Source: Nitrospirota bacterium (GTDB taxonomy: Bacteria > Nitrospirota > Thermodesulfovibrionia > Thermodesulfovibrionales > Dissulfurispiraceae). From it: a stretch of DNA of 43,939 nt. The stretch lies in the NCBI GenBank assembly GCA_021792185.1, contig JAJYVD010000017.1:1-43939 (forward strand), written 5' to 3'. Position numbers and translations under genes: made by a program. The notes under the pieces were generated by a model that was given only the letters and a program-made list of their open reading frames with translations, had not been told where the DNA came from and searched no databases. Positions 18,926 to 21,680 of the stretch are shown here, piece by piece (position 1 is the first letter of the stretch; each line of letters opens with the position of its first letter).

Positions 18926-18954
18926 TTATATATGATTATATGAAAAATTGTCAA
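18926..18954 (-). promoter_or_regulatory. Promoter and probable ArsR operator of the efflux operon
   Basis: On the minus strand TTGACA (18954-18949), 17 bases, then ATATAA (18931-18926). A perfect TATAAT also lies at 18940-18935. The A/T-rich stretch from CATATAAT to AAATATG is an imperfect dyad of the kind ArsR/SmtB repressors bind. Either -10 puts the transcript start within about 12 bases of the arsR ATG, so the mRNA would be leaderless or nearly so. Confidence 0.55.
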
Positions 18955-18986
18955 GAAAAAATATCATTGCATCACAGAATAAAAAA

Positions 18987-19253
18987 ATGTATCCTGATTT
19001 TATGCCCATATTTGTTGTTCATGAGCATCATGCGAGGCCAGGGACGGTGGTTATATGGGACAGGGGGACATACAAATTGCTCGGCGGAGGCATTGATTCC
19101 GGAAGGATTGAATTTCTGTTGAAAGGGAAAAAGTTAAAAGGGATTTTTGTATTAACAAGGATGAAGGGCAAGGATAAGGAGTGGCTTCTTATAAAGAAAA
19201 GGGATGAATATGCTGATGCACATTTTAAACTCCAGACGGTTTTAACTGAGTAG
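18987..19253 (+). pseudogene. LigD 3'-phosphoesterase domain remnant with internal deletion
   Basis: The frame encodes PIFVVHEHHAR, the first conserved block of the LigD 3'-phosphoesterase domain. It jumps directly to PGTVVIWDRGTY, a block that in complete proteins lies about 55-60 residues further on, and ends with LKGIFVLTRMKGKDKEW and LLIKKRDEYAD. The missing part holds most catalytic residues (LHYDxRLE and the later His/Tyr). The join is in frame. The product cannot be a working end-processing nuclease for NHEJ; it is a relic or has another use. The start is uncertain (a TTG at 18948 is also possible). Confidence 0.6.
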
Positions 19254-19589: not shown

Positions 19590-20870
19590 ATGAGAGTATT
19601 AAAGCTTATTTTGGCGGTGCTTTTTATTGCGGTGCCGTTGACTGCGTTTGCCGCTGAGAAAAAGGCGAATTCGATCGATGATCTCGCAAAGATGTATGAT
19701 GTGTCCTCATGCAAGACATGTCATGCCAAGATTTTTGAGGAATGGGAGAAGTCCTACCATGCAACCTCGCTCGTCGGTTCTCCGAGGACAATGGCGACAA
19801 TAGCGAGTGCCGTTAAGGACGGGATGATGAAGGAATGGACAAAGTCAGGGATTAAAAAGATAGAAGACATTAAGGTGGAACATATGATGTCCTGCCTGAA
19901 ATGTCATCTGCCGCAGATAAAAGACGCAACCGATGCAGTTGCACAGGAGATTGCAAAGGCAGCAATCGACGGTGCTGCGGGTGACGAAGCTGCTCAGGCA
20001 AAGCTTAAGAAGGTTGGAATCAACTGCCTTGTTTGCCATAACCAGAAGGCTCTTATTCATAAATGGACGGACGGCGAGCCTGAAGCCAATGTTATTTACG
20101 GCAACAAAGAAGGCGCCCATGCCGATGCGAAGTTCAAGGCCATGAAAAAGAGTCCTATAATGAAAGAATCTATACTCTGCGGGCAGTGCCACGGCCTCGG
20201 ACCGAATTTTGATTTGACGGAGCCTACACAGTGTGCAACGCTTTATGGAAGCTATCTGCATGCCTATGTTCCGGCCGGGGGCAATAAAACCTGTCAGGAA
20301 TGTCACATGGACAAAGGTCATTTTATGCCCGGTTATAGAGACCCTGATCAGGCAAAGAAGGCAGTGACCGTAGAGGTGGATTCAACGGGCTATTATTTCC
20401 TGCCGAAGGCAGGGGATTCGATACCTACCGCAAAGGTTACAGTAAAAATGATGAACAAGGCTGGTCACAGAATTCCTGACGGCTGACCGTCTCCGAACAG
20501 GCTGGTCCTGGATGTGACCGCAAAAACAAAAGACGGCAAAGAGGTATTTAATACGTCAAAGATTTATACCCCGCAGTCTCCTGCAAAAGGAAGAGGCGAC
20601 AAGATGGTATATGGTCCTTTCAGAAAGTCCGGCATGATCGCCGATACAACGCTTCAGCCGGGCAAGAAGGTTGTAGAGACCTTTGAGATTAAATTCCCGT
20701 ATGAAGATGTTGAGAAGGACGGCAAAAAGACCAGAGACATCAAGGCAAAAGAAATGGATGTAACGGTAAAACTCTGGTATATGCCTGCAGGCGGAGACCA
20801 TAAAAAGGGCGTTGTAGGTAAAGACCAATATCTTTTCTATGAGGCATCAAAGACGGTTACGGTGAAGTAA
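19590..20870 (+). CDS. Pentahaem c-type cytochrome with predicted selenocysteine
   Basis: 426 residues read through an in-frame TGA at 20484-20486 (residue 299) to TAA. There is a signal peptide ending AFAAE (about residue 22). Five CxxCH haem-binding motifs lie at residues 41 (CKTCH), 102 (CLKCH), 146 (CLVCH), 197 (CGQCH) and 235 (CQECH). After them comes a beta-rich domain containing NKAGHRIPDG-U-PSPNRLVLDV. GHxxPxG plus the next strand is a common block in large multihaem cytochromes of the c554-like group. The frame continues unchanged after the TGA, codon use stays alike, and a SECIS-like hairpin follows. It should be periplasmic and carry electrons; partners are unknown. SD AAGGAGG precedes the ATG. 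Confidence 0.82.
20498..20510 (+). promoter_or_regulatory. Predicted bacterial SECIS element 3
   Basis: CAGG (20498-20501) pairs with CCTG (20507-20510) around the loop CTGGT. Eleven bases separate the TGA from the stem, the spacing known for E. coli fdhF, and the loop holds GGT. The stem is short, so this is the weakest of the three. Confidence 0.5.
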
Positions 20871-20891
20871 CTCTGTTTTGTGTAGAGAAAA

Positions 20892-20925
20892 GCCATGTCC
20901 CGCTTAACGGGGCATGGCTTTTTTT
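20892..20925 (+). terminator. Rho-independent terminator of the cytochrome gene
   Basis: GCCATGTCCCG pairs with CGGGGCATGGC (11 bp, one G-U) around CTTAA, then seven Ts. The 3' end of the convergent ksgA gene overlaps it. Confidence 0.9.
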
Positions 20926-21680
20926 ATCAAATCGGCGAGTCTTGCAAATTCTTCAATGCTTAATGTTTCAGCCCTTCTGCGAGGGTCGATCCCTGCGGCA
21001 ATCAAAATTTCTTTTATATCATTTGAGATCGATTTCAGGGAGTTTGCGAGCGTTTTTCTGCGCTGCGCAAATGATGTTTTGACTACCCTGAAAAATAGTT
21101 TTTCATCGTTTACTGCTACAGCCGGTTTGTCGAGAATCTCTATGCGAATTACTGCCGAATCCACCTTAGGAACGGGCCTGAACGCGCCTTTGGGGATGAC
21201 GAATTTCAATTCCGGCTTGCTGTAATACTGAACGGCAATCGAGAGAACGCCGTATTCTTTTGTATCAGGCTTTGCGGCAATTCGTTGAGCGACTTCCTTC
21301 TGTATCGTCAGCGTCATGGATTTCAGATTTTTGCGGGCATCGAGGAGTCTGAAAATAATCGGCGTGGTTATGTAATATGGAATGTTTGCAACCACTTTGA
21401 ACGGTTCAAGTGCTTCATATGGATATTTGAGCGCGTCGCTGTGAATAAGTTCTATATTTTTGAATTCGTTCAACTCATCTTTTAATCTCGCATAAAGCTC
21501 GTAATCAAGTTCTATGGCGATTACCTTTTTTGCCGCGCCGGCAAGTATTTTTGTAAGAGTGCCCGGTCCCGGGCCGATTTCGACTACCGTGTCCTCTTTT
21601 GTAACTCCTGACGCTTCAACAATCCTGTGAAGAATAGACGGGTCAAAGAGAAAATTCTGTCCGAGATGTTTTTTAGGCAT
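20904..21680 (-). CDS. rsmA: 16S rRNA dimethyladenosine transferase
   Basis: 258 residues. The N-terminal signature KKHLGQNFLFDPSILHRIV, the SAM-binding GPGPGTLTKIL block and the catalytic NIPYYITTP motif identify KsgA/RsmA, which dimethylates two adjacent adenines in helix 45 of 16S rRNA. The C-terminal helical domain (FRVVKTSFAQRRKTLANSL) is complete, and length matches the family. Its end overlaps the terminator of the cytochrome gene. Confidence 0.95.
   Translation of the reverse strand: MPKKHLGQNFLFDPSILHRIVEASGVTKEDTVVEIGPGPGTLTKILAGAAKKVIAIELDYELYARLKDELNEFKNIELIHSDALKYPYEALEPFKVVANIPYYITTPIIFRLLDARKNLKSMTLTIQKEVAQRIAAKPDTKEYGVLSIAVQYYSKPELKFVIPKGAFRPVPKVDSAVIRIEILDKPAVAVNDEKLFFRVVKTSFAQRRKTLANSLKSISNDIKEILIAAGIDPRRRAETLSIEEFARLADLIKKAMPR

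Follow-up and report, generated by a model that had tools for sequence, protein, structure and literature searches.

A predicted selenocysteine-containing pentahaem cytochrome of the ExtKL/MccSep family in a Nitrospirota genome

We found that a Nitrospirota genome carries a gene for a pentahaem c-type cytochrome that is almost certainly a selenoprotein of the ExtKL/MccSep family, with family identity and selenocysteine (Sec) insertion judged jointly from sequence evidence. Sec on a multihaem cytochrome is chemically unusual. The ExtKL/MccSep family has already been named, catalogued, and structurally solved; what is new is mainly the place of occurrence and the Cys partner that accompanies the Sec. 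Here the family occurs in a lineage remote from Geobacter, outside the ext operon and with a well-defined SECIS. The best explanation overall is likely that of an exported pentahaem selenoprotein of this family with a Sec-Cys pair beside a haem.

The gene lies in a window of 43,939 nucleotides (the whole stretch of DNA analyzed), which is one contig of a 2.65-Mb genome that is 99% complete and that kinship assigns to Nitrospirota, close to Thermodesulfovibrionales. Translation of the open reading frame at 19590-20870 on the forward strand, which also carries the features of this gene given below, gave a protein of 426 residues with one in-frame TGA in an otherwise open frame that runs from an ATG at 19590 to a TAA at 20868-20870. 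As the preliminary description had noted, the frame is intact around the TGA, and a signal peptide and five CxxCH motifs are visible on the translation. The signal peptide (MRVLKLILAVLFIAVPLTAFA, 19590-19652) was recognized by inspection, and the N-termini of homologues are similar. The five haem-binding motifs, C41-H45 (19710-19724), C102-H106 (19893-19907), C146-H150 (20025-20039), C197-H201 (20178-20192), and C235-H239 (20292-20306), are each invariant in homologues. The TGA was located at 20484-20486, that is, at residue 299, where it interrupts GHRIPDG-U-PSPNRLVLDV as originally described. The ATG has a GGAGG ribosome-binding site in front of it, and between the gene and the convergent ksgA, at 20891-20926, we recognized by eye a terminator-like T run preceded by a GC-rich inverted repeat. 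Because of these two elements, the gene resembles a single transcription unit.

Several lines of evidence identify this as a known kind of protein, namely a match to the family model, the MccSep structures, a review listing, and a selenoprotein proposal for Geobacter. The NCBIfam model NF040886 ("multiheme c-type cytochrome (seleno)protein ExtKL") matches residues 10-408 with 543.2 bits (cut-off 250). The ExtKL/MccSep layout of five CxxCH motifs and a C-terminal Ig-like domain (matches to residues 250-426) is present, and the Sec occupies the GHxxPDG-U-P position as in the NF040886 family. The MccSep structures (PDB 9wt8, 9wt9, 9wta, 9wtb, and 9wtc) match residues 18-420 with E-values of 6e-137 to 1e-136, and residue 299 aligns with MccSep Sec325, which is given as X in the entry and as A in the mutant U325A. 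MccSep shares Cys215 with the window protein but has a longer N-terminal region. ExtKL is listed among the prokaryotic selenoproteins in a 2026 review (PMC13188914), and the Geobacter protein has been proposed as a selenoprotein (PMC5877670). Geobacter sulfurreducens ExtKL (GSU2937-GSU2936) resembles the window protein in having five CxxCH motifs, one TGA-encoded Sec, and the same domain order.

Support for Sec comes from the homologues. We aligned 151 homologues from Nitrospirota and Desulfobacterota-type MAGs and isolates, including 80 named loci. Column 299 is encoded by TGA in 129 of them, is Cys in 20, and is His in the remaining two, with some genomes obtained by two routes included in these totals; counted as distinct sequences around this column, there are 107 TGA, 19 Cys, and 2 His forms. 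This recurrence of TGA and Cys in the same column places the TGA at residue 299 far beyond chance. A search of 395 genomes of the phylum gave a homologue in 217 at a cut-off of 1e-10; almost all of the closest homologues contain exactly one TGA. A tree of 91 rows requires three changes between Sec and Cys. The initial proposal of a pentahaem cytochrome with a single Sec is thus borne out by Sec or Cys at this site in 149 of the 151 homologues, by the Sec machinery, and by the aligned Sec residue of a solved homologue.

Alternatively, the TGA could be a true stop that separates two genes (ExtK and ExtL), or the mark of a pseudogene or a sequencing error. The split of the Geobacter gene into GSU2937 and GSU2936 in some annotations (PMC6148476; PMC5877670) would fit a true stop. 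However, the same TGA occurs in 129 homologues from independent genomes with Cys in others, the SECIS codons are frozen, the Sec machinery is present, and a Sec-containing homologue has been solved. We consider this alternative extremely improbable and rejected all three forms of it on the conservation of column 299.

Among individual loci, one ExtKL copy (G156:C9:96712-97970) is probably broken: the matches of its two halves overlap, and the first half contains three internal TAA codons. Two loci have tandem pentahaem paralogues: an adjoining pair that both contain Sec (L075:180-1433 and L075:2167-3375), and a pair with one Sec and one Cys form (L085:181-1515 and L085:1681-3498).

Codons 305-310 (CTG GTC CTG GAT/GAA GTG ACC; 20502-20519) are synonymously frozen in the TGA genes: where the residue is kept, one codon is used in 93-100% of cases, compared with a background of 53%. 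No such freeze was found in the flanking codons of the TGA genes, and it is gone in the Cys genes. These codons overlap a hairpin at 20503-20520 (UGGUC-C-UGGAU-G-U-GACCG), in which 20503-20507 pairs with 20516-20520, an inner pair joins 20508 and 20514, and the apical loop UGGAU (UGGAU or UGGAA among homologues) carries GG at 20510-20511. Each of the five stem pairs is formed in 77-85 of 86 distinct sequences, and the inner pair in 83. Across 29 diverse sequences, 90.8% of cells are paired and four cells are changed on both sides, a level of covariation reached by one of 500 shuffles; slid registers of the stem pair in 16-64%. GG is not universal in the loop, since GTA, TGA, or GTC replaces GGA at loop positions 26-28 in 11 of the 86 distinct TGA genes (L070, L036, L080, and a few others).

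Criteria for the loop, stem, spacing, and energy of bacterial SECIS elements have been published (PMC13188914). The hairpin agrees with them in its loop, in its upper stem of 5 bp plus an inner C-G pair (4 bp or more expected), and in its UGA-to-apical-loop distance of 22 nt (16-37 nt expected). Its energy is borderline against a threshold of -7.5 kcal/mol or lower: a 44-nt fold, which takes in an adjacent helix, gave -7.6 kcal/mol without outperforming shuffled sequences, and the core of 24 and 28 nt gave -7.2 kcal/mol. An Rfam scan of the window for SECIS returned no match at the gathering score and only sub-threshold chance matches around the TGA, so bacterial SECIS elements are evidently poorly covered by Rfam. 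The preliminary description had instead pointed to a GGT-loop hairpin starting 11 bases past the TGA (CAGG-CTGGT-CCTG, from 20498). That hairpin is present but not conserved, with 61% of cells paired and no covariation, and was rejected as the SECIS for want of a conservation signal; the conserved hairpin overlaps it and starts further 3'. Judging from these sequence features, the TGA at 20484-20486 is most likely decoded under the direction of the hairpin at 20503-20520.

The genome itself encodes the machinery for this, the absence of which had been named as a possible refutation: SelA (623 bits), SelB (395 bits), SelD (328 bits), and a tRNA-Sec with anticodon UCA (71 bits) were all found. 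The selD gene (G000:C51:20006-20920) has one in-frame TGA, and SelD is therefore probably a selenoprotein as well. SelB was found in 36 of the 39 genomes tested, and 12 of the 13 in this set with TGA-free ExtKL copies have it; the three genomes without a SelB match may reflect assembly gaps. Given this distribution, Cys at column 299 does not merely replace Sec where the machinery has been lost, and we rejected such a loss as the origin of the Cys forms.

A second residue accompanies the Sec. Cys215 (codon 20232-20234), which lies between haem motifs 4 and 5 and is not part of a haem motif, is invariant in all 129 Sec and all 20 Cys proteins (149/149). In Nitrospiraceae, tandem pentahaem paralogues without Sec (L063, L064, and L172-L195) share the five CxxCH motifs, His293, and the overall layout with the window protein, but differ from it in having His or Asp at column 299, no Cys215, and no TGA. 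At column 215, these proteins have Ala, Ser, Thr, Gly, or Val, such that Cys215 and Sec/Cys299 are both absent in both paralogue families while His293 is retained. They score 104 bits against NF040886, which is under its cut-off. Two such Sec-less matches occur in nearly all of the 41 Nitrospiraceae genomes searched (L172-L195); where read, the pair consists of neighbouring paralogues, with THP in the Sec loop of one and GDP in that of the other.

His293 (codon 20466-20468) is located six residues before Sec299 in the same loop and is invariant in all homologues, including the Sec-less paralogues and the penta-haem cytochrome c552 of Thermochromatium tepidum (PDB 5ze8). The latter is the best fold match (Foldseek 1.1e-8) to an AlphaFold model that has a mean pLDDT of 68, falls under 50 in the Cys215 region, and was built without haems. 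In this model, an all-beta Ig-like domain at approximately residues 250-426 carries the Sec loop, and superposition of the same haem-free model on 5ze8 gave a VIA Z of 14.0 with an rmsd of 5.0 over 262 residues. The profile match to 5ze8 is 3.5e-29 at a sequence identity of 20%. c552 resembles the window protein in its PHxxPxG loop with the His conserved, and differs in having Ala at the Sec column; it still has a Cys near column 215. From this conservation we infer that His293 would ligate a haem, probably as a distal ligand.

Sec299 could itself ligate a haem iron axially (Se-Fe) and tune its potential, in which case the protein would be a pure electron-transfer cytochrome. Its place in the loop, six residues from the invariant His293, is compatible with this role, as is the fact that the Nitrospiraceae paralogues lacking Sec have His (or Asp) in its place, given that Cys and His ligate haem. 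However, His293 in the same loop is the simpler ligand, being invariant also in proteins without Sec and in c552, where the Sec column is Ala. Furthermore, Asp, found in one paralogue family, is an unusual haem ligand, and ligation by Sec299 leaves the strict co-occurrence with Cys215 unexplained. We therefore regard Sec299 as a quite unlikely ligand and His293 as the better candidate. The co-occurrence favours a redox or substrate-binding role for Sec299. Cys215 may have another role, as c552 keeps a nearby Cys despite the Ala at its Sec column.

In the mechanism that we propose, Sec299 would be inserted by SelB and tRNA-Sec(UCA) guided by the SECIS at 20503-20520, and the protein would be exported and probably periplasmic. 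The N-terminal five-haem domain may take electrons from periplasmic or membrane donors, and one haem would have as a ligand His293, which shares its loop in the C-terminal Ig-like domain with the Sec. Sec299 and the non-haem Cys215 would then form a chalcogen redox or substrate-binding pair (selenenylsulfide/selenolate) beside this haem, receive electrons from it, and reduce a small substrate, plausibly a compound of Se, Te, or S. The pairing of Sec299 with Cys215, including the proximity that it presupposes, is tentative, with the balance of our judgment slightly against it. The fuller version is possible although rather doubtful: a selenenylsulfide or joint substrate couple wired to a His-ligated c-haem, in an operon-free enzyme found across Nitrospirota and Desulfobacterota, that was dismantled in the Sec-less Nitrospiraceae paralogues. 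If true, the couple would be a haem-coupled selenium redox centre. The proposal singles out Cys215 as a testable partner of the Sec and His293 as a probable ligand of a haem; both ideas can be checked on the MccSep structures.

As for the substrate, the extHIJKLMNOPQS cluster of Geobacter has been tied to selenite and tellurite reduction via extI, and the selenite phenotype belongs to the extI mutant (PMC5877670). In the literature on the family, we found no substrate demonstrated for an ExtKL/MccSep member. Selenite or another chalcogen oxyanion is a doubtful candidate for the window protein. Deletion of extHIJKL in Geobacter affects Fe(III) citrate reduction, and ExtKL has also been regarded as a component of an electron conduit (PMC6148476).

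That deletion phenotype would also suit a role for ExtKL as a general periplasmic electron carrier or a part of extracellular electron transfer, related to the c552 and archaeal ECN nanowire fold, in which Sec merely protects or joins subunits. The fold similarity to 5ze8 points the same way, as does a study of cable bacteria in which this family is linked with both c552 and the AvECN nanowire (PMC11976967). However, the same study took a pentacoordinate haem as grounds to class its own ExtKL-type homologues among potential catalysts (PMC11976967). Moreover, the retention of Sec/Cys and Cys215 across very diverged proteins argues for a chemical job, and Sec is kept in 129 of 151 homologues even though three lineages show that Cys is possible. 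A carrier role is therefore unlikely in our assessment, and we prefer the redox pair beside a haem.

The gene stands alone between an ArsR/RND efflux locus and the convergent ksgA. This differs from Geobacter (PMC5877670) and a Desulfuromonadaceae locus (L134), where the gene is located inside an extKLMNOPQS-type cluster; no extHIJ or extMNOPQS neighbours were found in the window. A search of the genome for an ExtM-like protein, run without a positive control, gave no match, and a search for ExtP gave only matches to cytochrome b, which are 37-39% identical and located on other contigs. The ExtKL homologues of cable bacteria are likewise located outside any ext cluster (PMC11976967). Among the 80 loci, with flanks of up to 10 kb, no conserved operon partners were found beyond local synteny.

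A second selenoprotein gene had been suggested about 8 kb away, and we confirmed a YeeE/TsuA-like transporter gene 8.4 kb upstream (10140-11234, forward strand; PF04143, 246 bits) with two in-frame TGAs at conserved Cys positions. U32 aligns with the Cys of TsuA GRICFN and U323 with that of TsuA GGCNIG, and the third conserved Cys (GGCGSG) remains Cys. YeeE/YedE is listed with one Sec only in the selenoprotein family table (PMC13188914). Among relatives, both TGAs are present in L090 and one in each of L107 and L037, and L108 has Cys at both positions. A Sec-containing YeeE gene lies near an ExtKL-type gene in only 4 of the 80 loci (flanks up to 10 kb), all of which are close relatives. Just upstream of the transporter gene, a DsrE-like ORF (9346-9648, forward strand) matches PF02635 over residues 2-44 only and is apparently truncated, the frame past it being closed by several stops. 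A fragment-like ORF (18948-19253, forward strand), whose match to PF13298 (DNA ligase D 3'-phosphoesterase) is confined to the end of that domain, is possibly a decayed gene.
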